Source of the DNA: Lachnospiraceae bacterium
GTDB lineage: Bacteria > Bacillota > Clostridia > Lachnospirales > Lachnospiraceae
Reading direction: 5' to 3'
DNA: 45,639 bases
NCBI GenBank assembly: GCA_030531165.1
Contig: JAUNOI010000009.1
Location: 1-45,639 of the forward strand
Shown: one piece after another, positions 1 to 38,098 of the stretch
How positions within the stretch are numbered: position 1 is the first letter of the stretch
Layout of the letters: every line of letters begins with the position of its first letter
Position numbers and translations under genes: made by a program
Notes under the pieces: generated by a model
What the model was told of the DNA's origin: nothing
The model's input: the letters and a program-made list of their open reading frames with translations, nothing else
Database searches by the model: none

Positions 1-2
1 GT

Positions 3-512
3 ACGAATATGATTCAGGCAGGCTCGTCAGAATGGTCAGCTATTTTGTTAAAGCATGAGATATATCGATTGTTTACCGCTATGTTTCTACATTTTGATAT
101 AGAACATTTGATTTCTAATATGTTTGTACTGTTTTTAATTGGAAGTTTTGTGGAACATTATCTGGGAACTATAAAATATATCATTGTATATCTTATGTGC
201 GGAGCAGCAGGAAATATGCTTTCCTTTTATTTTGCAATTGGTGAGCCTTCTCTGATACTGTCAGCCGGTGCATCGGGGGCTATCTATGGAGTATTAGGTA
301 TATTAGCTGTTCTATTGTGGAAAACGAAGGGACGATTAGAAGGAATACAAGGACCAGGCTTAGTTTTCTTTGTTATTGGAATGATTTTTCATAGTTATCA
401 GTCAGAAGGAGTCGATTATTGGGCACATATCGGAGGATTGGCTATGGGAATCATCCTGGGAATTGTTTTGAAGAGAAATTTGAATAAAACGGCAGAAGAA
501 GCGGGAGATTAA
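3..512 (+). CDS. Rhomboid-family intramembrane serine protease (5' end outside window)
   Basis: The reading frame is open to the left edge, so the N-terminus is missing. What remains has the rhomboid layout: an HEIYRLFTAMFLH segment, the HLISNM segment in the second helix, the catalytic serine in GASGAIYG, and the catalytic histidine in AHIGGLAMG in the last helix. At least five hydrophobic segments are visible. Rhomboids cleave transmembrane segments of other membrane proteins within the bilayer; the substrate cannot be told from sequence. The gene ends in a Rho-independent terminator whose stem begins inside the last codons. Family assignment is secure. Confidence 0.93.
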   Translation, partial: TNMIQAGSSEWSAILLKHEIYRLFTAMFLHFDIEHLISNMFVLFLIGSFVEHYLGTIKYIIVYLMCGAAGNMLSFYFAIGEPSLILSAGASGAIYGVLGILAVLLWKTKGRLEGIQGPGLVFFVIGMIFHSYQSEGVDYWAHIGGLAMGIILGIVLKRNLNKTAEEAGD

Positions 513-528
513 TCCTGCTTCTTTTCTG
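494..528 (+). terminator. Rho-independent terminator of the rhomboid gene
   Basis: AGAAGCGGGA (497-506) pairs with TCCTGCTTCT (513-522), with one G-T pair, and is followed by a T run. The stem overlaps the stop codon. It lies only a few bases before the 3' end of the opposite-strand kinase gene. Confidence 0.8.
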
Positions 529-529
529 A

Positions 530-1195
530 TCATAAGGGGAAATTTAGAATGATCGTTGTGCCTCTTCCGGGAGAAGAAAAAATATGAAACTCACCATGAA
601 TCGATTCCATAATTTCGAGAACGAGAGGAAGACCGATGCCATGTCCATTCTTTTTATATGTAATTCCCGGATTTAGAACTTTAGACAACTGCTGTTGATT
701 CATTCCGCAACCGGTGTCCTGAATTTGAATTTGTAAAGTTTTCGGCTGCAATTCTGTTTGAATTGATATTGAATTTTGAGAATGCCCCAATTCTGCCTTT
801 TTGCAGATAGCGTCATAACTGTTTGTTAAGATATTATAAAAAATATGTTCCAGTTGCTGCCTGCTGACGGGAAGTTCTACATGTTCAATTTCTGTTGGAA
901 TAGAAAATCGAATACCCTGATCGGAAAGCCGAGGACTCCATGATTGATATAAATGTTTCAAAAATGAGGAAATTGGTGTTGGTTCTGCTGTCGCGCAGGT
1001 GAGATCTTCTTCTTCCATGGCTTCCCGAAGAAGATGAAATGCAGATGAAAAATCCTCTTTCATGCGAATCCAATATTCATCTTTTGATAAATATTTATAT
1101 AAGTGTTCAATGTGCTGCAGTTGACTGTAAATGATCGTTAAGTAATTATTTATCTCGTGTGAAAGGGTAGGTGTTGTATGTAACATATGTTCCAT
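530..1195 (-). CDS. Soluble sensor histidine kinase (HATPase domain protein)
   Basis: 221 residues with no membrane segment or visible sensor domain. An LSHEIN segment places a likely phospho-acceptor histidine at residue 13. The ATP-binding half carries an N-box (YNILTNSYDAI), a G1 box (QDTGCGM) and a G2 box (GHGIGLPLV). The size and the H-box at the extreme N-terminus resemble stripped-down NtrB/sporulation-type kinases. No response regulator is adjacent, so it is an orphan kinase. A start nine codons further upstream is possible, but AAAGGAGAA lies inside those codons and is correctly spaced for the ATG at 1195. On the minus strand a TATAAT (1229-1234) lies upstream, without a clear -35. 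Its partner and signal are unknown. Confidence 0.75.
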   Translation of the reverse strand: MEHMLHTTPTLSHEINNYLTIIYSQLQHIEHLYKYLSKDEYWIRMKEDFSSAFHLLREAMEEEDLTCATAEPTPISSFLKHLYQSWSPRLSDQGIRFSIPTEIEHVELPVSRQQLEHIFYNILTNSYDAICKKAELGHSQNSISIQTELQPKTLQIQIQDTGCGMNQQQLSKVLNPGITYKKNGHGIGLPLVLEIMESIHGEFHIFSSPGRGTTIILNFPL

Positions 1196-1276
1196 TAGTA
1201 ATTCTCCTTTATGCCTTTCCATTCAGTTATTATAATCAGTTTAGCAAAGATAAAATCATGGTTCAATGAATATCGA

Positions 1277-1308
1277 AGGCAAAATTTCGATAAAATTTTG
1301 CCTCTTTT
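1277..1308. promoter_or_regulatory. Perfect 11-bp inverted repeat between divergent kinase and dnaX genes
   Basis: AGGCAAAATTT (1277-1287) and AAATTTTGCCT (1293-1303) form a perfect stem with loop cgata, followed on the plus strand by CTTTT. It lies upstream of both genes, not downstream of one. It could be an operator or an orphan terminator-like element in the dnaX promoter region. A possible -10 (TATGGT or TAGAAT) lies about 20 bases beyond it. Confidence 0.45.
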
Positions 1309-1357
1309 CCAATCTGTTCAGTTATGGTAGAATACTCTAATGAAGGAGGGAAAGATA

Positions 1358-2962
1358 ATGTCTTATATGACCCTTTATCGAAAATTCAGACCCGATCAGT
1401 TTGATGAAGTTAAAGGTCAGGATCATATTGTTACGACCTTAAAAAATCAGCTGATTGCGGATCGTATTGGACATGCCTATTTATTTTGCGGAACGAGAGG
1501 AACAGGGAAGACGACAGTTGCGAAATTATTTGCAAAAGCGGTAAACTGTGAACATCCGGTAGATGGAAGCCCATGTGGAATGTGCAGAAGTTGCCAGGCA
1601 ATCGCAGAAGGCAGTTCTATGAATGTAATCGAGATTGATGCTGCATCGAATAATGGTGTGGATAATATCCGGGAGATTAAAGAGCAGGTGCGTTATTCTC
1701 CAACAGAAGGAAGATATAAAGTCTATATTATTGACGAAGTGCATATGCTCTCAATCGGAGCATTTAATGCATTATTAAAGACATTAGAAGAGCCGCCTTC
1801 TTATGTTATTTTTATTTTGGCAACAACGGAAGCACATAAAATTCCAATTACGATTTTGTCAAGGTGCCAGCGATATGATTTTCGAAGAATTACGATTGAT
1901 ACGATTGCGGATCGGTTAAATGATCTGATGAAAAGAGAAGATGTATTCGTCGAGGATCGGGCAATTCGTTATATTGCTAAGGCAGCGGATGGATCGATGC
2001 GAGATGCTTTGAGTTTATTGGATCAATGCATTGCTTTTTATCTGGGGGAAAAATTAACTTATGATAAGGTTCTTGAAGTGCTGGGTGCGGTAGATACCGA
2101 AATTTATCAGAATCTGATGACATTGATCTTGGAACAGAATGCAGCCGGTGTTATGAACTATATTGAAGAAATTATCTGGCAGGGGAAAGATTTATCCCAA
2201 TTTGTTGCAGATTTTATGTGGTATTTGAGGAATATGCTGCTTATAAAAACTGGTGATGTGCCAGAAGATGCTTTGGATATTTCAAGCAATAACCTTGAGA
2301 TTATGAAAAAGAATTCAGAAAAATTAGATTCAGAGATATTAATGCGTTATATTCGTGTTTTATCTGAACTTCTGAATGAGATAAAGTATTCGACATCCAA
2401 ACGCATTTTAACAGAAGTTGCATTCATAAAATTATGCAGACCGCAGATGGAGAAAAATTATGACAGCATTTTAGACAGACTTCGTCAAATAGAACAAAAA
2501 ATGGAGGACCTGGAAAAACATCCAACAGTAGTGGTATCAAAAGTTTCGGAAGAACCGGAAACGATCGGAGAAGAGATTTCAGAGGTGGATACGACAGAGG
2601 AACTCTGCAAAAAATTTGAGACAGCTACAGTAAAGGAATTGCAGAAAATTGCAGCAGGTTGGAATGATCTCAAGCACCGTCTTCCGCCAAGATTGAGATA
2701 TCTGGTGAATTATTCAAAAATGGTAGTAAAAGAAGATAGTGAGAGGTTATGCCTGTTATTTCCGAATAATCCGGATGGAGAGGATGGCAAAATGACCTTT
2801 GAACGTGCCGGAAGGATGAAACAATTGGAACAGGAAATCAGTCATCTGGTTCAAAGAGAAGTAAGTATTGAATGTCAATTAATGGAAAAAACGCAGGTGG
2901 AGAATCGGGATTATTTTGATTTAAGTAAGATAAAAATGGAAATTGAATTTAAAGATGATTAG
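1358..2962 (+). CDS. dnaX: DNA polymerase III subunits gamma/tau
   Basis: The ATPase of the replicative clamp loader, which works with HolA (delta, at 28728) and HolB to load the sliding clamp. The N-terminal AAA+ module shows LYRKFRP, Walker A (GTRGTGKTT), the zinc-binding cysteines (CEHPVDGSPCGMCRSC), Walker B (VYIIDEVHML) and the SRC motif (LSRCQRYDF). A charged linker and a C-terminal tau-like domain follow; 534 residues is usual for Clostridia. AAGGAGGG precedes the ATG at 1358, so I chose this over the ATG 18 bases upstream, which overlaps the ribosome site. It heads the dnaX-ybaB-recR operon. I saw no clear A-AAA-AAG slippery site inside the gene. Confidence 0.98.
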   Translation: MSYMTLYRKFRPDQFDEVKGQDHIVTTLKNQLIADRIGHAYLFCGTRGTGKTTVAKLFAKAVNCEHPVDGSPCGMCRSCQAIAEGSSMNVIEIDAASNNGVDNIREIKEQVRYSPTEGRYKVYIIDEVHMLSIGAFNALLKTLEEPPSYVIFILATTEAHKIPITILSRCQRYDFRRITIDTIADRLNDLMKREDVFVEDRAIRYIAKAADGSMRDALSLLDQCIAFYLGEKLTYDKVLEVLGAVDTEIYQNLMTLILEQNAAGVMNYIEEIIWQGKDLSQFVADFMWYLRNMLLIKTGDVPEDALDISSNNLEIMKKNSEKLDSEILMRYIRVLSELLNEIKYSTSKRILTEVAFIKLCRPQMEKNYDSILDRLRQIEQKMEDLEKHPTVVVSKVSEEPETIGEEISEVDTTEELCKKFETATVKELQKIAAGWNDLKHRLPPRLRYLVNYSKMVVKEDSERLCLLFPNNPDGEDGKMTFERAGRMKQLEQEISHLVQREVSIECQLMEKTQVENRDYFDLSKIKMEIEFKDD

Positions 2963-2995
2963 GGGAAAAACCTGATCAGAAATAAGGAGGAAATT

Positions 2996-3343
2996 ATGGC
3001 AAAAAGAGGCGGTTTCCCAGGAGGAATGGGAATGGGAAATATGAATCAGTTGATGAAGCAGGCACAGAGAATGCAAAAGCAGATGGAAAAAGCCCAGCAG
3101 GAGCTCGAAGAGTCTGTATATGAAGCAACTGCAGGAGGCGGCGTTGTTAAAGTTCAATTGTCAGGAAAAGAAGAATTATTATCCGTTTCACTCGCAGAAG
3201 AAGTTGTAGATCCGGATGATATTGAGATGCTGGAGGATTTGATCATCGTTGCTGTCAATGATGCATTGCAGCAGATGATGGATGATAAAGAAGCGAAGAT
3301 GGGCAAATTCACCAATGGAATGGGTGGAGGCATGCCATTTTAA
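2996..3343 (+). CDS. YbaB/EbfC family nucleoid-associated protein
   Basis: 115 residues with the family layout: a Gly/Met-rich N-terminus, the helix [18 protein letters not shown], a short beta segment ([16 protein letters not shown]) and the motif [12 protein letters not shown]. Family members are homodimers that bind DNA and coat the nucleoid. The gene's fixed place between dnaX and recR points to a role in replication or recombination, though the exact function is not settled. AAGGAGGAAATT precedes the ATG. Its stop codon shares one base with the recR start, so the two are translationally coupled. Confidence 0.95.
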
Positions 3344-3939
3344 TGAACTATTACAGTGATGCAATTACAAATTTAATCGAAGAGTTCAGCCATTTGCCGG
3401 GAATTGGAGCAAAATCGGCACAGAAACTAGCGTTTCATGTGGTCAATATGCCGGAAGATCAGGTGCAAAAACTGGCGGATACGATTGTCTCTGCAAAGAA
3501 AAATATTCATTATTGTAAAGAATGTTGTACATTGACAGACCAGGAAATCTGTCCGATCTGTTCCAGTCAGAAGCGTGATCATAGCATTATTATGGTTGTT
3601 GAGAATACAAGAGATCTGGCTGCTTATGAAAAAACAGGCAAATACAATGGTGTATATCATGTATTGCATGGAGCGATTTCTCCGATGTTGGGAGTCGGTC
3701 CCAATGATATTCGACTGAAAGAATTGATGGCGAGACTTCAAAAGGATGTAAAAGAATTAATTTTAGCGACAAATTCCAGCCTGGAAGGTGAGACTACAGC
3801 GATGTATATCAGTAAACTCGTAAAACCGACAGGAATCAAAGTGAGTAAAATAGCCAGCGGCGTTCCGGTAGGAGGAGATTTGGAATATATTGATGAAGTT
3901 ACTTTACTCCGGGCATTGGAAGGGAGAACGGAAATTTAA
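3343..3939 (+). CDS. recR: Recombination mediator RecR
   Basis: 198 residues, the normal length. The N-terminal helix-hairpin-helix ([17 protein letters not shown]), the C4 zinc finger ([16 protein letters not shown]) and a Toprim domain ([26 protein letters not shown]) are all present. RecR acts with RecF and RecO to load RecA on gapped DNA. It starts at TAATG, overlapping the ybaB stop by one base, and its ribosome site lies in ybaB. A strong terminator follows at 3952. Confidence 0.98.
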
Positions 3940-9839: not shown

Positions 9840-9942
9840 GTTTCTTATTCAGAACGACGGAGGTTTAAGGGCCAGTGAAGTCGTGGCAACCCCTATATGG
9901 AAGGTGCCGACCGGAGCCGCTTGAAAAGCGGAGCAATAAGAC
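9840..9942 (+). ncRNA. SAM riboswitch (S-box, SAM-I type)
   Basis: Closing stem P1 pairs TCTTATT (9843-9849) with AATAAGA (9935-9941). Inside are the conserved GGAGG, the GGGCCAGTGAAG segment, TGGCAACCCC, and a final hairpin GCCGCTTgaaaAGCGGAGC just before P1 closes. It precedes metK, the SAM synthetase gene, as expected for feedback by SAM. The terminator at 9964 is the expression platform. Fine base-by-base agreement with the family model was not checked. Confidence 0.9.
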
Positions 9943-22766: not shown

Positions 22767-22778
22767 AGATATACTGAC

Positions 22779-23013
22779 GTTGAAGAGGATTAGTACATGG
22801 ACTAGCCTGTTTTCAGAGAGGAAGCCAGGAGGTGTGAAGCTTCTAATAGGTATTCGTGGAACCTACCTTGGAGTTACTGTCCGAAAGGACAGCGCAGGCC
22901 AGCGTTATGGGCAGTAGAGAGGATTCTGATGAGAAGAAGTGTCAGGATTAATCAGGGTGGTACCGCCGATATTTTCGGTCCCTAGAGAGGGATGGAAGAT
23001 ATCGGCTTTTTAT
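22779..23013 (+). ncRNA. T-box leader, proline-specific
   Basis: The T-box core AGGGTGGTACCGCC (22954-22967) pairs with the acceptor end of uncharged tRNA. The specifier loop reads GAA-CCT-ACC, giving CCT (Pro) at 22862-22864, which fits the downstream prolyl-tRNA synthetase. The terminator pairs GCCGATATTTTC (22965-22976) with GAAGATATCGGC (22995-23006) and ends in TTTTTATTT. Binding of uncharged tRNA-Pro should favour the antiterminator and switch on proS. Confidence 0.93.
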
Positions 23014-30583: not shown

Positions 30584-33500
30584 ATGTGGAAAGTTTTGGG
30601 AATTGAGTCAACAAGTGATGAAGATATCATTAAGGCAGCATATAGAACAAAGTTGGTAGATGTTAATCCGGAAGAAGATCCGGAGGGGTTTAAAGAACTG
30701 AGGAAGGCTTATGAAGAAGCCTGTGAATGGGCGCAAAAGGCTAAGAAGAAAAAAAGCCCATTTGAACAGTGGATCTATGATATGGAACAGATCTATGAGA
30801 ATTTTTATCGGAGAATTGATGAAGACGAATGGAATGAGATTTTTGAGAACGACATCTGTACTGATTTAGATACTTTTGAAGATGCCAGAATGGAGATTAT
30901 ACGCTTTTTCATGGGACATTACTTTCTGCCTCAATTCGTATGGAAAAAAGCATGGGAAGTTTTCGAATTTGAAGAAGACAGAGATATGCTAAAGGAGAAA
31001 GTATCGAATGATTTTATTGCATACATACAATTTCGCGCGGAAGAGGAAGATTACTTTGATTACCAGCTTTATGATGGACCGTTTGATGGAGATTATGATG
31101 ATTATATTAAAAAGATACATCTTTTTAAATCGCTGCTCGAACAAGGATATCTGGAAGAAGCAAAAGAACTGAAACATGAATTAGAGGCATCGGAGATTCA
31201 GCATCCATATGTAAAAATGGAGATTATCAAATATTATCTTTTTTTAGAGGAAGATAAATGGAAACCGATATGGAAAGAATTGCAGGAAGAACTGGACGAT
31301 AATCCGTTTCTGACGGAACTGAATGGGGAGATATTATTAAAAGAGGGAAGATATAAAGAAGCAGAGGATTTATTCATTCAGGTTCTGGATAAAAAAAGTA
31401 ATGATATTAGTGCAAGTCGAAAATTGGTAGAATTGTACCAAAAGACAGGGGAATATGAAAAAGGAAAAAAGATCTGTCTGAGTGTTTTGGATGGAAAAAT
31501 TCCGGATGAAAAGATCTGTAACGAAATGATTGCAATTAATGAGAAACTGATTGATTTATGGAGAACGGTAGAAGACAGGCAGATAGATTTGGCTTGGTGT
31601 TATTATCAGAATCAAAGGTTTTCAGAATGTCTTTCGGTACTCGAAAAGATAGAACCGGAAGGCGAGATAGAATTTGATTATTACAATCTGATCGCAAGAG
31701 TTTTATTAGAGACAGGCGATTATAAAAACGGATTGCAAATGACAAAGATCTGGATTTCTAACATCGAGCATTTGACCGGTCAGGAAAAAGAATATGACAG
31801 GAAAAGCAAGAGGTACGGTTACGCACATTTTATTGCATCTATGTATTGTCTGGAAATGGGCATGGAAGAAGAATGCAATGAATATTTTCAGCGTTCATTA
31901 GAACTTGATCAGGATCAGCTCGATGTGCTTATGTATCGAGAAAGACGAATGGATTCATTCTTAAAAAGAAAAGAATATGAAAGATGCATTCGAGAGGCCA
32001 ATTATGCGATAGAGGAGAGTGAATTTTTCTATCCTGCATATGTATATCGTCAGGAAGCACATTACCATCTGTATCACGTACAGCAGGTTATTGATGATTT
32101 TTATCGTGCAATAGAAATTATTCCCGATCAGGCGAAACCGTATATAACTGCAACTAAAATGATGTTGGATTTTCATATGATGGAGGATGCTGCTAAGATC
32201 TTGGATATGGGAAAACGCAACCGGGTGGATGAACCGGAGTTTAAATTCTATTTGTTAGAACATGAAAGGCTGAATGAAGATAAGCCGGAGCGATTGCAAC
32301 AGATTATAACCGAGATGGAAGAGCTGATTCCCGATTTGCCTGACAAAAAGGGAGAGATCTGTTATCGACTGGGTTTGATCTGTGACCGTCTGACAGAAGA
32401 TTCTTTGGATGCAGATCTTTTGAAGAGTGCGATCAAATATGCTTCAGTGGCAATACAGGAAGATGAAAGCAGACCGGAATATCATTGGTTGTTAGCGGAT
32501 TTATATAAGAAAAATGAAGAATACGAAAGAGCTTTAAAGTTTTATTATAAAGTACTGCAGATCGATGATTCATTACAGGATGTATGGATTGATATAGGCT
32601 ACGTATTGGAAGCGCTTGGGAAGATTGATGAGGCGATCGAGGCTATGGAGAGAGGCGTGTCTGAGCGGGAGGATCAAACGTATGTACACAATGCTCTGAT
32701 GAACCTGTATTTGAAACGATTTGCTCAAAAAAGAGAACGGGAAGATTTTGACAGGGGTATTTTGCATGCGGACAGACAATTGGAGATGACAGAAAATGCT
32801 TATTTTTATCGTGAAAGAGCCTATTTCTATATCGAGGATATGCAGTTGGAGCCTGCATTAAGGGATATAAGAAAATCCTACGAGCTTGATCCGGAAGATT
32901 TATATGCGTTGAGCAGTATGGGATATATTTATCGTCTGATGGGGGAATACAAAAAAGCTATTTATTATTATGAACTGGCTGAAAAGCATGCGAATACGCC
33001 ACAGCAGCAGTTTTCATTGTATCGATGGTGGGGACCGATCTATGAGAGGGATGGGCAATTTGCAAAAGCTTTAGAGTGCTATATAAAATGCCTTAAAATA
33101 GACCCGGATTCCTCTGATGTACTGGAAGAGGTAGCGAATATTTGCACGCGTACCAATGATTATGCAAAGGCTGCACGATACTATGAAAAGGCAATGATGT
33201 TAGATGAAGATTCCAGAGTACATTTGATGATAAAGACCGTGCGGGCATATTATCATGGCGGTAATTGGTTAAAGGCAAAGAAAGCTTTAAAACAACTGGA
33301 ACTGAGTTATGGGCATTTGCCGAACGTAAAATGCCAGATAGCGGAATTTTATCTGGAAGAAAAGTATGATTTAAGAAAAGCATACAAGTATTATATGGAT
33401 GCATGCGGTTATGATACAGAAGAACCTTATATGAGAATTGTCGAAGTGTACCATAAAATGGGAAAGCCGGTCGATGCCCGGAAAATGTGCCGGCTGGCGG

Positions 33501-33838
33501 AAAAGAAGATCAATACAATTTATGGTTCGATGAAAGATTTTATTCGCATGAAAGGAAATCAGAAGTATGTTTACTATAATATTTCATTGATGTATTATTA
33601 TAGTGAAAAGACAGATGTTGCAATACAATACTGCGAGGAAATGAAAAGACGTCCGATGTGTGACTTCTGTCCGTATGGATTTTGTTTTGAAGAGATGTTT
33701 ATGGATGCACTGATATTAGCCTTAAAAGGAAACAAAGAGGAATCATTAAAATTATGCAGAAAAATTTTGAGACAGGATCAGAATTTAAATGAAGTGCGTC
33801 ATTTTATGAAACAACTGGAAGAGAGAAGCGAGAGATGA
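30584..33838 (+). CDS. Large TPR protein with degenerate N-terminal J-domain
   Basis: 1084 residues. Residues 1-45 align with J-domains: WKVLGIESTSDEDIIKAAYR, then DPEGFKELRKAYEEA. The HPD signature is replaced by Asn28-Pro29-Glu30. A charged region follows, then many TPR-like helix pairs from about 185 to the C-terminus, e.g. ALKFYYKVLQIDDSLQDVW and AARYYEKAMMLDEDSR. Near the end Cys1026, Cys1029 and Cys1034 make a C-x2-C-x4-C cluster. No signal peptide or membrane segment is seen. It overlaps the Hsp70 gene by 4 bases (ATGA). I infer an HscC co-chaperone that gathers clients through its TPRs, like the J-like DjlB/DjlC partners of E. coli HscC. Confidence 0.8.
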   Translation: MWKVLGIESTSDEDIIKAAYRTKLVDVNPEEDPEGFKELRKAYEEACEWAQKAKKKKSPFEQWIYDMEQIYENFYRRIDEDEWNEIFENDICTDLDTFEDARMEIIRFFMGHYFLPQFVWKKAWEVFEFEEDRDMLKEKVSNDFIAYIQFRAEEEDYFDYQLYDGPFDGDYDDYIKKIHLFKSLLEQGYLEEAKELKHELEASEIQHPYVKMEIIKYYLFLEEDKWKPIWKELQEELDDNPFLTELNGEILLKEGRYKEAEDLFIQVLDKKSNDISASRKLVELYQKTGEYEKGKKICLSVLDGKIPDEKICNEMIAINEKLIDLWRTVEDRQIDLAWCYYQNQRFSECLSVLEKIEPEGEIEFDYYNLIARVLLETGDYKNGLQMTKIWISNIEHLTGQEKEYDRKSKRYGYAHFIASMYCLEMGMEEECNEYFQRSLELDQDQLDVLMYRERRMDSFLKRKEYERCIREANYAIEESEFFYPAYVYRQEAHYHLYHVQQVIDDFYRAIEIIPDQAKPYITATKMMLDFHMMEDAAKILDMGKRNRVDEPEFKFYLLEHERLNEDKPERLQQIITEMEELIPDLPDKKGEICYRLGLICDRLTEDSLDADLLKSAIKYASVAIQEDESRPEYHWLLADLYKKNEEYERALKFYYKVLQIDDSLQDVWIDIGYVLEALGKIDEAIEAMERGVSEREDQTYVHNALMNLYLKRFAQKREREDFDRGILHADRQLEMTENAYFYRERAYFYIEDMQLEPALRDIRKSYELDPEDLYALSSMGYIYRLMGEYKKAIYYYELAEKHANTPQQQFSLYRWWGPIYERDGQFAKALECYIKCLKIDPDSSDVLEEVANICTRTNDYAKAARYYEKAMMLDEDSRVHLMIKTVRAYYHGGNWLKAKKALKQLELSYGHLPNVKCQIAEFYLEEKYDLRKAYKYYMDACGYDTEEPYMRIVEVYHKMGKPVDARKMCRLAEKKINTIYGSMKDFIRMKGNQKYVYYNISLMYYYSEKTDVAIQYCEEMKRRPMCDFCPYGFCFEEMFMDALILALKGNKEESLKLCRKILRQDQNLNEVRHFMKQLEERSER

Positions 33839-35523
33839 TTATAGGAATTGATTTAGGGACAACCAATAGCCTGGCAGCATATTTTACAGATGATGGGCCG
33901 AAGATCATACCAAATCGATTAGGAAAACACATGACTCCATCTGTTGTCAGCATCGATGGTGAAGAGATTTATGTTGGAGAAACTGCAAAAGAACGGCAGA
34001 TCCTGTTTCCGGATTGTTCTGCCAGTGTATTTAAACGGGATATGGGGAGTCAGAAAACTTACCATCTTGATGGTAGAGCGTTTACCGCAGAGGAGTTATC
34101 GTCTTTTGTCCTTCGGAGTCTGAAAGAAGATGCGGAATATTTTTTAGGCGAACCAATTGAAGAAGCTGTCATCAGCGTTCCGGCATATTTCAATGAAGCG
34201 AGAAGAAAGGCAACGAAGCGTGCCGGAGAACTTGCAGGATTAAAAGTAGAGAGGATCATAAGTGAGCCCACTGCGGCCGCTATTGCGTATGGTCTGTATC
34301 AAAAAAAACAGAATACAAAGTTTCTGGTTTTTGATCTGGGAGGCGGAACCTTTGATGTATCTATTTTAGAATTATTTCAGAATATATTAGAAGTCAGAGC
34401 AGTTGCAGGGGATAATTATCTGGGCGGCGAAGATTTTACAAAGGTGATTCAGGAATTGTTCATAAAGGACACGAAAATAGATTCGGAACAACTTGAACGT
34501 AAGGATCTTGGAATGATCCGTAAGCAGGCAGAACAGTGTAAGCTGGCATTTGGAACAGACAGCAGCTATATCATGAGCTGTCAGGTCGGTAATGATATAA
34601 AAAGGGCATCGATTACCTGCGGGAGATTTGAGAAAAGATGTGAACCGTTATTAGACAGGATCAAGAGGCCGGTAAAGAAAAGTCTGTCCGATGCCAAGAT
34701 AAAAGTATCCGATATTGATGAGATCGTCTTAGTCGGAGGAGGAACGAAACTTCGGCTTATTAGAAAGTATGTGGCAAAATTATTTAAAAAGATGCCAAAT
34801 ACCAGTGTCGATCCCGATGAAGCGGTTGCACTTGGAGCAGCGATCCAGGCTGCAATGAAAGAGAGAAAAGAAGCAATCAAAGAGGTTATTTTAACGGATG
34901 TCTGTCCATTTACGTTAGGAACGGAGGTTGTGATAGAGCGGGGAGATGACAAATACGAATCCGGACATTTTGCTCCGATCATCGAACGCAATACGACGAT
35001 TCCTGCAAGCCGTACAGAGCAGTTCCGAACGGTTTATGACGGGCAGACAAAACTGAATATACATATTTTGCAGGGAGAAAGCCGATTTGCAGCGAATAAT
35101 ATTTCCCTTGGGAATCTGGAGGTTGAAGTGCCTTCGAATAAAGCGGGAGCAGAGGCAATTGACATCACTTATACATATGACATTAATTCCCTGCTCGAGG
35201 TTGAAGTGAAGGTCGTATCGACAGGAGAGATGAAAAGAATGATTGTAAAAAATCAGGAAGTAGATATGACGGATGAAGAGATTGAAGCCCGTATGAAGGA
35301 ACTGAGTTATCTGAAGATTCACCCGAAAGATCAGGAAGAGAATCAATTATTATTACTGCGAGGGGAGCGAATGTATGAGGAGAATACCGGGGAAACAAGG
35401 CTTCGGATCGAATATGAATTGAGGGAATTTGAAAGAATCCTAAATGGCAGAGATGAAGCAGAAATTGCAGATGCAAGAAAAACGTTAAAGGATGTATTGG
35501 ATGAAATCGACGAAGAGTGGTAA
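33835..35523 (+). CDS. hscC: HscC-type Hsp70 chaperone
   Basis: 562 residues, shorter than DnaK because the C-terminal lid is short. The nucleotide-binding domain has GIDLGTTNSLA, KRDMGSQKTY, VPAYFNEARRKAT, SEPTAAAIAYG, FDLGGGTFDVS and VGGGTKLRLI. The DVCPFTLGTEV segment and the KR-MG motif match HscC rather than DnaK. The beta substrate domain follows (about 370-490). The gene begins inside the last codons of the TPR/J-like gene, so the two are probably made together. The housekeeping dnaK is expected elsewhere. Confidence 0.92.
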   Translation: MIIGIDLGTTNSLAAYFTDDGPKIIPNRLGKHMTPSVVSIDGEEIYVGETAKERQILFPDCSASVFKRDMGSQKTYHLDGRAFTAEELSSFVLRSLKEDAEYFLGEPIEEAVISVPAYFNEARRKATKRAGELAGLKVERIISEPTAAAIAYGLYQKKQNTKFLVFDLGGGTFDVSILELFQNILEVRAVAGDNYLGGEDFTKVIQELFIKDTKIDSEQLERKDLGMIRKQAEQCKLAFGTDSSYIMSCQVGNDIKRASITCGRFEKRCEPLLDRIKRPVKKSLSDAKIKVSDIDEIVLVGGGTKLRLIRKYVAKLFKKMPNTSVDPDEAVALGAAIQAAMKERKEAIKEVILTDVCPFTLGTEVVIERGDDKYESGHFAPIIERNTTIPASRTEQFRTVYDGQTKLNIHILQGESRFAANNISLGNLEVEVPSNKAGAEAIDITYTYDINSLLEVEVKVVSTGEMKRMIVKNQEVDMTDEEIEARMKELSYLKIHPKDQEENQLLLLRGERMYEENTGETRLRIEYELREFERILNGRDEAEIADARKTLKDVLDEIDEEW

Positions 35524-35570
35524 AAGAGAAACAAAGTAAAGTCTTAATTATATAAAGGGGATGGAGCTTT

Positions 35571-37493
35571 ATGCTGTTAAAAGAATATTTAAAAGCGAAA
35601 AAGATGGCAATGAAAGATTTTCGAATGCATTCGAGCAAGGGAGAATATCCATATCTGCAAGTATTGGATGACATTCTGAAATATGCGGGTACAACAAAAG
35701 AGCAAAAACTTGGACTAGTCGATATACCGCTCGATCAGATCGTCGGCACGAAAAGTTGGGGACGGACAAATGCGTTTGCAAGTAATTTTATGCCTTTGAT
35801 GGATGAAGAATCGGAATTCGCCTCCAAATGGATGAACTTATACCAGGCACACCTGGATGAAGGCATCCGGGATCCGATTATTGCTTATGAATATATGAAT
35901 CATTTTTATGTTATGGAGGGGAATAAACGGGTCAGCGTTATGAAATATTTCGATGCAGTCAGTATTTCCGGCAATGTAACGAGAATTATTCCACAGAAAA
36001 ATGATTCAAAAGAATCCCGTATTTATTATGAGTTTTTAAATTTTTATGAAATGACGCAAATTAATTATGTGAACTTTTCACAGCCGGGAGGATATAAGAA
36101 ATTAATAGAACTTGTTTGCCCGGATAGAAAAGAACCATGGGATCAGGATATGCAGACGGATTTTGGTACAGCATATTACCGGTTTGCAGACATTTTTCAG
36201 GAAAAGGCAGCGGGAAAGAAGATGCCGTTAACGACAGCGGACGCTTTTTTAATCTATCTGGATTACTACGGTTATGAATATCTTCTGGATAAAAAGCAAA
36301 AAGAATTAAAGGAAGAAATCGTAAAACTCTGGAAGGACTTTTTGATTTTTCCGAACAAACGCCAGTTGAACCTGAAGCTGGATTCTGACCAGATGGAGGC
36401 GTTGAATGTGATTGATAGAACGATCCATTTGCCGATTTCAAAAATTAAAATTGCATTTATTAATCAGAAATCTCCGGAGACATCCAAGTGGGTATATATG
36501 CATGATCTGGGAAGAAAAAGCATAGAGCAGGAATTTGGAAGTAAAATTAATGTTCTTGTCTATAATCAGGTCGATACGACGGCGGCCGGGATAGAAGCTA
36601 TGAGCGATGCAATAGAAAAGGGATGTACGCTTATTTTTGTAACGACCCCGAGTCTGATCAAAGCGTGTACCTCTGTTGCGGTCAAGTATCCATATGTAAA
36701 GATCCTGAACTGTTCGCTGAGCACCTGCTACGGACATATTAAGACGTATTATGGACGATTATATGAGGCCAAATTCCTGATGGGCGTGATTGCGGGGATC
36801 ATGACAAAATCCAACGATATCGGATATCTCGCTGATTATCCAATATCCGGTGCGATAGCAAATATCAATGCGTTTGCTATCGGAGCGAGAATGGTCAATC
36901 CGAATGCCAAAATCCACCTGCACTGGTATACGAAAAAAGAGATTAATGTGGATGAAAATTTATGGAACGATAAAGTGTCGATCGTATCCGGCTATGACAG
37001 TATTATTCCTAATAATGATGCGGTTCGTTTTGGTATTTATGATTTTAATCAGAAAGACGCACCACCACTTGCCATGCCGGTATGGGAATGGGGGACATTT
37101 TATTCCAAGATCGTAAATTCCATATTAAACAATACATGGAAGAAAGAGAAGTTAAAATCAGACGAGGCGATTAACTATTGGTGGGGAATGTCCTCAGGTG
37201 TTATTGATATACTGGTATCCGGACAGCTGCCAGTTGGTGTGAAACGTTTGGTTGAAACTTTAAAGAAATCCATCCAGGAAAAGATATTGTACCCGTTTGA
37301 AGGTGAGATTTATGATCAGAGCGGCATATTAAGGAATAAATCAGGAGAAATTATGACTCCGTATGATATTATGCAGATGGATTGGCTTGTAGATAATATT
37401 GTCGGGGAGATTCCATTTCGGGATGAGTTGGTAGACGAGGCAAAGTCAATTGTCAAAATTCAGGGAGTGAAAAAGGAAGACAGAAACATATGA
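35571..37493 (+). CDS. Cytoplasmic fusion of ParB-like domain and BMP/PnrA-like nucleoside-binding domain
   Basis: 640 residues with no signal peptide or lipobox. Residues about 45-140 look like a ParB/sulfiredoxin-type domain: PLDQIVGTKSWGR, RDPIIAYEYMNHFYVMEG, and GNKR at 117-120 where ParB proteins have their GxxR nucleotide motif. From about 292 a BMP (PnrA-like) domain begins: KIAFINQKSPETSKW, AIEKGCTLIFVTTPS, EAKFLMGVIAGIMTK, AFAIGARMVNPNAKI. BMP proteins are normally surface lipoproteins that feed nucleosides to ABC transporters; this one appears to be cytoplasmic. No permease gene is near. It follows hscC by 47 bases and overlaps the next gene by 4. I infer a ligand sensor. Confidence 0.78.
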   Translation: MLLKEYLKAKKMAMKDFRMHSSKGEYPYLQVLDDILKYAGTTKEQKLGLVDIPLDQIVGTKSWGRTNAFASNFMPLMDEESEFASKWMNLYQAHLDEGIRDPIIAYEYMNHFYVMEGNKRVSVMKYFDAVSISGNVTRIIPQKNDSKESRIYYEFLNFYEMTQINYVNFSQPGGYKKLIELVCPDRKEPWDQDMQTDFGTAYYRFADIFQEKAAGKKMPLTTADAFLIYLDYYGYEYLLDKKQKELKEEIVKLWKDFLIFPNKRQLNLKLDSDQMEALNVIDRTIHLPISKIKIAFINQKSPETSKWVYMHDLGRKSIEQEFGSKINVLVYNQVDTTAAGIEAMSDAIEKGCTLIFVTTPSLIKACTSVAVKYPYVKILNCSLSTCYGHIKTYYGRLYEAKFLMGVIAGIMTKSNDIGYLADYPISGAIANINAFAIGARMVNPNAKIHLHWYTKKEINVDENLWNDKVSIVSGYDSIIPNNDAVRFGIYDFNQKDAPPLAMPVWEWGTFYSKIVNSILNNTWKKEKLKSDEAINYWWGMSSGVIDILVSGQLPVGVKRLVETLKKSIQEKILYPFEGEIYDQSGILRNKSGEIMTPYDIMQMDWLVDNIVGEIPFRDELVDEAKSIVKIQGVKKEDRNI

Positions 37494-38098
37494 TGAATAT
37501 ATTAGTTGTAGCAGATGTAGAGTCAAAAGTCCTGTGGGATTATTTTGATGGTTCTCAAAAAGGGCAAATTGATCTGATTATCTCCTGTGGAGATCTGGAT
37601 GCGGATTATCTGTCGTTTCTGACGACCATGTATCATTGCGATGTATTGTATGTCCATGGAAACCATGATGAAAACTACAAGATAAATCCACCAGAAGGAT
37701 GCATCTGTATTGACGATCAGCTGATCAATTATCAGGGAATTCGGATATTAGGACTGGGTGGTTCGATGAAATATAACGGAGGTACGTATCAATATACAGA
37801 AGCACAGATGAAACTTCGCTATATGCGCCTCTGGATGCAGATACAAAAATATCATGGATTTGATATTCTGGTAACACATGCGCCGGCGAAGGGAATTCAC
37901 GATGGAGAAGATCTGCCGCATCAGGGATTTCAATGCTTTTGTTCCCTGATGGAAAAATACGAGCCAGCTTATTTTCTGCATGGACATGTTCATCTGAATT
38001 ACGGATACCAGATTCCGCGAGTGGACAAGTTTCGGAAAACTACCATTATTAATGGATTTGAAAAATATTTGTTTGAATACAAGACAGCGGGGGATTGA
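37490..38098 (+). CDS. Calcineurin-like metallophosphoesterase
   Basis: 202 residues. Metal-binding motifs are in order: Asp in VADVESK, ISCGDLDADY, VHGNHDE, THAPAKG and HGHVHLNYG. The first motif is D-x-E rather than the usual D-x-H. Small stand-alone enzymes of this fold hydrolyse phosphodiesters, cyclic nucleotides or phosphoproteins; the substrate here is unknown. Its ATG overlaps the TGA of the ParB-BMP gene (ATGATG), so the two are coupled. A second ATG three bases later is equally possible. Confidence 0.88.
   Translation: MMNILVVADVESKVLWDYFDGSQKGQIDLIISCGDLDADYLSFLTTMYHCDVLYVHGNHDENYKINPPEGCICIDDQLINYQGIRILGLGGSMKYNGGTYQYTEAQMKLRYMRLWMQIQKYHGFDILVTHAPAKGIHDGEDLPHQGFQCFCSLMEKYEPAYFLHGHVHLNYGYQIPRVDKFRKTTIINGFEKYLFEYKTAGD

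Follow-up and report, generated by a model that had tools for sequence, protein, structure and literature searches.

A ParB-BMP protein and its neighbouring metallophosphoesterase form a widespread gene pair in Clostridia, separate from an adjoining HscC chaperone module

The DNA analysed here, called the window, is a stretch of 45,639 nucleotides from a Lachnospiraceae bacterium (assembly GCA_030531165.1, contig JAUNOI010000009.1) and is one entire contig of a draft genome. Four consecutive genes in it encode a J-like TPR protein (J-TPR), an Hsp70 of the HscC type, a protein in which a BMP domain follows a ParB-like domain (ParB-BMP) and a calcineurin-like metallophosphoesterase (MPE) (Table 1). 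An earlier note on this DNA had proposed that the four act as one chaperone and ligand-sensor device. Comparison with related genomes does not support such a device; the four genes are two independent modules side by side. ParB-BMP and MPE constitute a real, widespread, tightly coupled and apparently undescribed pair, which is common in relatives from the gut and reaches Actinomycetota. The likeliest reading of this pair, to which we assign a probability of about 0.5, is a cytoplasmic sensor of a purine-type ligand that is equipped with its own phosphoesterase.

Co-occurrence of the two genes was examined in several samples. The first comprised 61 genomes (the window's own, four congeners, 32 of the family and 24 of the order), which were searched with each of the proteins. 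A full-length ParB-BMP protein and an MPE orthologue were found in the same 22 genomes; ten more genomes that match only via the BMP domain were excluded from the full-length count, and one further MPE match, at 1.7e-5, was dropped as weak. Of these carriers, 19 have the two genes side by side, with MPE directly downstream on the same strand in 14 and convergent in five. One carrier has MPE some 3.4 kb off on the opposite strand, and two have it on another contig. In 391 sampled genomes of the class, thresholds were set at E ≤ 1e-40 for the ParB-BMP profile and E ≤ 1e-30 for MPE. The profile matched 91 genomes, 39 of them with a full-length protein and 52 with the BMP domain only, which were excluded. 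MPE was found in 41 genomes and both proteins in 38 (p = 4e-48). The genes are no more than 600 bases apart in 37 of these 38, the remaining one having them on different contigs. Within the 37, MPE is downstream and convergent in 20, downstream on the same strand in 16 and upstream in one. Adjacency thus survives a change of orientation, which co-transcription alone is hard-pressed to explain.

The same arrangement was found around 80 named ParB-BMP loci, with flanks of at most 10 kb to either side (46 of the loci span at least 20 kb). MPE is directly downstream in 75 of them, a count that includes L138, whose ParB-BMP gene was dropped by an open reading frame filter though its MPE was listed. 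The only genome of the class sample with ParB-BMP and no MPE (G160) has a ParB-BMP gene that runs off the contig end. Among the loci searched, a DUF402 gene stands beside ParB-BMP or MPE only in G160 and G271 (loci L181 and L185): in G160 DUF402 is followed by ParB-BMP, and in G271 MPE is next to DUF402, ParB-BMP having apparently been lost and MPE kept. A broken second copy of the pair, with both genes fragmentary, occupies positions 1 to 3688 of locus L067 (contig C25 of G009); that genome carries an intact pair elsewhere.

Beyond the class, a Collinsella aerofaciens record (L186, NZ_OY725717.1) holds the pair with a 4-base overlap and with identities of 35% and 46%. There ParB-BMP carries the annotation of a BMP family ABC transporter substrate-binding protein and MPE that of a metallophosphoesterase. 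The record is named plasmid 6, and it is read as probably chromosomal because it carries rplA, rplK, nusG, secE and tuf. Both genes are also present in a record of Subdoligranulum and in a phage clone whose record is unverified. With 76 carriers of ParB-BMP in a sample of 200 genomes of the family (E ≤ 1e-100) and the pair in a second phylum, a common gene pair has thus been labelled, in Collinsella, as a transporter part and a generic enzyme.

It is quite improbable, in our estimate, that the pair is an accessory of phage defence or of mobile elements. MPE does match PDC-S10, a phage-defence candidate of PADLOC, with an E value of 4.6e-17, residues 223-274 of ParB-BMP weakly match the PADLOC REase_II model (5.5e-4), many divergent ParB folds are found on mobile elements (PMC12704722), and the genes that flank the pair vary. 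However, 73 of the 76 family carriers have a single match per genome. Only two plasmid records and one phage record matched at least 80% of the ParB-BMP length, the Collinsella record among them has the ribosomal-protein genes and tuf, and that of the phage is unverified. No defence gene was noticed by eye among the recurrent neighbour families of the 80 loci. In PHROGs, MPE was matched only as a metallo-phosphoesterase (3.1e-8), and residues 1-290 of ParB-BMP gave nothing useful.

The layout of ParB-BMP was studied in two alignments, both of which include the window protein. A1 has 21 rows, namely 21 of the 22 full-length proteins of the 61 genomes (the contig-cut protein of G041 was excluded), and A3 has 46 rows, the window protein and 45 hand-chosen from the 80 loci. 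The label ParB, given to the protein in the earlier note, is supported as a remote relation and not by Pfam, which assigns no ParB_N domain (PF02195) to the window protein and reaches E ≤ 1 in three of the 46 members (best 0.0094). Profile-profile comparison with hhalign against 30 ParB_N-matching domains of relatives (29 distinct, 29 of the 30 over the family cut-off) gave a collinear alignment of 96 columns with a score of 28.2 and an E value of 0.0015, or 27.5 and 0.00043 for the trimmed domain, at a probability of only 17-34%. Control scores were 12.1-15.2 for ten column shuffles, 12.0 for the linker, 10.3 for the BMP domain and 15.7 for MPE. In this alignment the EGNKR motif, present in 21/21 rows of A1 and 46/46 of A3, falls on the GERR loop of ParB, and a GxxR P-motif with its conserved arginine is found in all ParB-BMP rows. 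The N-terminus is therefore described here as a putative ParB_N-like domain, remotely related to ParB.

Binding of cytidine, adenosine or guanosine triphosphate (CTP, ATP or GTP) is known among ParB-fold proteins, which frequently carry further domains (PMC12704722). As 17 of 28 purified ParB-fold proteins bound no nucleoside triphosphate (NTP) (PMC12704722), NTP binding by ParB-BMP is not to be assumed. The fusions of the ParB-CTPase fold surveyed by Kaljevic et al. 2025 (PMC12704722) resemble ParB-BMP in having a ParB_N-like domain with a GxxR loop that is fused onward, and the nearest idea among them is that of archaeal ParB-CBS fusions, in which a nucleotide domain is combined with a sensor of adenosyl ligands. 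The domain search of that survey, in contrast, used PF02195, which barely touches the ParB-BMP family, and the words BMP, substrate-binding, periplasmic, purine and phosphoesterase are absent from its main text. A literature search on ParB joined to BMP/PnrA, nucleoside binding or metallophosphoesterase, mostly among papers available without subscription, found no account of the pair.

The second half of ParB-BMP is assigned with more certainty. Pfam recognizes Bmp (PF02608) in the window protein (E 3.1e-17; 63 bits against a cut-off of 24.1), and the Bmp profile matches all 46 members scanned. A profile of 21 ParB-BMP proteins matched AtzT (6pi5) with an E value of 7e-67 and 3s99 with 2e-64, each over about 330 residues; Med (2hqb) followed at 5e-9 and TmpC at 0.03. 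AtzT retains guanine with a dissociation constant (KD) of 110 nM and binds adenine with a KD of 2.5 uM, and 3s99 is a basic membrane lipoprotein of Brucella melitensis that was modelled with adenine (PMC6834077). ParB-BMP shares this domain with AtzT and 3s99, but here it sits behind the ParB-like domain and no hydrophobic N-terminus or membrane segment was found by a hydropathy scan. No transporter subunit is a constant neighbour in the 80 loci. By layout, hydropathy and neighbours, ParB-BMP does not fit an exported lipoprotein of an ABC transporter. The comK activator Med likewise has a BMP domain in a protein that is not labelled a transporter part, its label being that of an activator of transcription; its chain of 296 residues matches the BMP part only and is much more distant in sequence than AtzT.

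Contacts of AtzT with guanine involve Tyr45, Ser97, the backbone of Phe98, Glu165, Trp194, Asn218 and Asn220 (PMC6834077). These positions were mapped through the profile alignment to 6pi5 with a deduced numbering offset of 5. The place of Tyr45, which stacks on guanine, is taken by W307 and is tryptophan in 21/21 rows of A1 and 46/46 of A3. T359 stands at the Ser97 place (serine or threonine in 20/21 and 37/46) and D476 at the Asn220 place (aspartate or glutamate in 21/21 and 43/46). The opposite holds for three other contacts. G427 is found at the Glu165 place, which is mostly glycine and is glutamate in 3/21 and 0/46 rows; K456 is at the Trp194 place (lysine or arginine in 17/21 and 43/46, tryptophan in 2/21 and 0/46); and the Asn218 place is asparagine in 1/21 and 3/46. 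The two rows with tryptophan at 456 also keep glutamate at 427. These are two distant members, so a distant branch would retain more of the purine-base pocket, and the branch of the window would have one wall changed. Judged from its matches and residues, the domain probably belongs to the guanine/adenine-binding branch with a remodelled pocket, and the changes may suit a different, bigger or phosphorylated ligand.

The phosphoesterase is assigned to Metallophos (PF00149) by Pfam with an E value of 1.4e-8. Its conservation was followed in alignments of 22 rows (A2) and of 32 rows (A4, the window protein and a chosen subset of the 75 loci). Residues D9, G34, D35, N58, H59, H130, G165, H166 and H168 are invariant in both. 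The histidine place of motif I is glutamate in 21/22 rows of A2 and 26/32 of A4, with proline or lysine in the others and D-x-H in none; one row reads GNHN in the GNHD/E motif. Other active phosphoesterases also depart from D-x-H, and activity of MPE is plausible. Enzymes of the YfcE/MPPED2 type belong to the same family; MPE keeps the GD, GNH, H and GHxH motifs and differs in motif I, which is mostly D-x-E. Both matches are weak, at 0.003 for YfcE, short of the cut-off for that model, and 0.0003 for MPPED2 (3rl4).

Taken as a sensor, the pair might work as follows. The BMP domain would bind a purine-type small molecule. This could be a base, a nucleoside or perhaps, as the remodelled pocket may allow, a derivative that carries phosphate. 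Once occupied, it would switch the ParB-fold nucleotide-binding domain of its chain to another state, which would control the dedicated MPE or be opposed by it. The enzyme would act on a phosphodiester or a phosphomonoester of the same class of metabolite. We infer that the pair is cytoplasmic, that it binds an NTP, which ligand it recognizes, that its proteins touch directly and which reaction MPE catalyses. The ligand sensor with a partner phosphoesterase that the earlier note had suggested is supported as a two-gene unit through strong co-occurrence and adjacency, while its ligand and reaction stay at the level of prediction. Should the ParB-like domain prove to be a nucleotide switch, the pair would offer a ParB-fold protein whose switch is coupled to a receptor domain for small molecules and whose partner enzyme is already at hand; binding assays of the kind applied to ParB folds (PMC12704722) could test the idea directly.

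Several observations weigh against this reading. Besides the remoteness of the ParB assignment, most members have altered Glu165, Trp194 and Asn218 places, which leaves purine binding uncertain. AtzT itself fails to bind GTP (KD > 8 mM; PMC6834077), which lends no support to a phosphorylated ligand. The partners are not strictly obligate, since three of the 41 class genomes with MPE have no full-length ParB-BMP and no MPE was found within the stretch covered in five of the 80 loci (L069, L073, L074, L107 and L139, of which L107 ends 1.1 kb downstream). In those three genomes, no ParB-like gene occurs within the 9-12 kb around MPE. There is no constant third gene either that would hint at a pathway: the next neighbour families occur in 18, 10 and 10 of the 80 loci and look by eye like common transporter parts. 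A scan for known RNAs around the pair in 20 loci (L002-L021, with flanks of up to about 1.5 kb) gave only two tRNAs at gathering scores and no riboswitch. A weak association of ParB-BMP with HscC, described below, belongs among these points.

A different division of labour would be a kinase/phosphatase cycle, in which a ParB-fold kinase similar to SerK or SbnI phosphorylates a nucleoside-like ligand bound to the BMP domain while MPE undoes the reaction, so that the pair would serve salvage or buffering and not sensing. SbnI is a ParB-fold kinase, and the EGNKR loop in every row and the near-obligate pairing with a phosphoesterase would suit such a cycle. The likeness to SerK and SbnI, however, rests on the fold and not on catalytic residues, and BMP domains, like the one on this chain, usually serve binding rather than catalysis. 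SerK and sulfiredoxin are among the divergent ParB folds, yet a SerK-like protein binds CTP rather than ATP (PMC12704722). We regard a kinase cycle as distinctly unlikely. The sensor reading could also be taken further, to a new class of purine signalling inside the cell that extends from Clostridia into Coriobacteria, in which a ParB-fold switch fused to a cytoplasmic binding domain and an atypical MPE would read and reset a nucleotide-type messenger; this extension is tentative and rather unlikely.

Table 1. Features of the four-gene region in the window
Feature	Position	Strand	Description
J-like TPR protein	30584..33838	+	1084 aa; N-terminal DjlB/DjlC-type J-like domain, NPE replacing HPD; HscC module
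HscC-type Hsp70	33835..35523	+	562 aa; HscC module
Intergenic gap between modules	35524..35570	+	47 bases
ParB-BMP protein	35571..37493	+	640 aa; open reading frame and Pfam Bmp match
ParB-BMP layout (residues)			putative ParB_N-like ~45-145 (EGNKR 116-120), middle region ~150-290, BMP/PnrA-like ~290-618
Calcineurin-like metallophosphoesterase (MPE)	37490..38098	+	202 aa; D-x-E not D-x-H in motif I, all other metal-ligand positions conserved

The other module is of a known kind. Similarity indicates an HscC chaperone with a dedicated J-like targeting protein of the DjlB/DjlC type, and the labels J-like TPR protein and HscC in the earlier note were apt. The window Hsp70 (Pfam HSP70, E 1.2e-131) has 43% identity with E. 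coli HscC across 557 amino acids and, with its 562 residues, falls in the length range of 550-580 amino acids given for HscC, whose partnership with DjlB/DjlC has been described (PMC8215388). In the larger protein Pfam finds TPR repeats and a sub-threshold DnaJ domain (E 1.3e-5; 25.7 bits, cut-off 27.8), and its start is 55% identical to DjlB (55 residues) and 58% to DjlC (45 residues). The J-domain tripeptide HPD is absent; the window protein and 12 of 13 aligned relatives have NPE instead, and the remaining relative has SPE. E. coli DjlB and DjlC likewise lack HPD and carry HPE at this site, but they have 475 and 483 amino acids, and the longer window protein consists mostly of TPR repeats. 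A close HscC orthologue (identity at least 53%) occurs in 16 of the 61 genomes, and the J-like gene adjoins it in 14. It lies 3.5 kb from hscC in G006 and was not found on the 4.3-kb contig of G060. The order is reversed in G059 (L064, 7240-11968), where hscC precedes J-TPR.

The four open reading frames on one strand, the 4-base overlaps of J-TPR with hscC (33835-33838) and of ParB-BMP with MPE (37490-37493), and the 47-base gap were all confirmed as described, and a simple consensus scan found no terminator-like site on the + strand in that gap. G000 and G004 have all four genes in one cluster, and so does G003, except that a 325-aa zinc-ribbon gene there separates hscC from ParB-BMP; these are three of the five genomes of the window's genus. 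In the congeners G001 and G002, however, the two pairs are on separate contigs with different surroundings. A zinc-ribbon gene (63% identical) still directly follows hscC in G001, and ParB-BMP is elsewhere. The zinc-ribbon gene would thus go with hscC, and the close spacing of 47 bases seen in the window seems to be a secondary state. This gene stands after hscC at L032:3088-4065 and L054:3986-4957 in two congeners, and L062 has, by eye, zinc-ribbon-like genes between J-TPR and hscC; it may be part of the HscC module.

A gene-neighbourhood check across relatives, which the earlier note had called for, found no conserved co-occurrence of the four genes outside the genus, and on the refuting criterion of that note the four-gene unit fails. 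Neither J-TPR nor HscC was matched at E < 1e-60, a threshold strict for TPR proteins and less so for HscC, in any of the 80 ParB-BMP loci elsewhere, within the stretch covered at each. In the family sample, the HscC orthologue (E ≤ 1e-170) was found in 38 genomes, 21 of which also have ParB-BMP and 17 do not. The association is weak (Fisher p = 0.013, or 0.029 minus two genomes of the window's genus) and comes without linkage. As assembled, only those two have HscC and ParB-BMP together; the other 19 have them on different contigs, which draft contig breaks limit as proof of separation, or at least about 189 kb apart on the same contig. One functional device of four genes is consequently very improbable, codirectional genes, clustering within the genus and weak co-occurrence notwithstanding, and the chaperone pair should be kept out of studies of the ParB-BMP/MPE unit.

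Elsewhere in the window, the + strand carries an S-adenosylmethionine (SAM) riboswitch at 9842-9942 and a T-box leader at 22771-22986.

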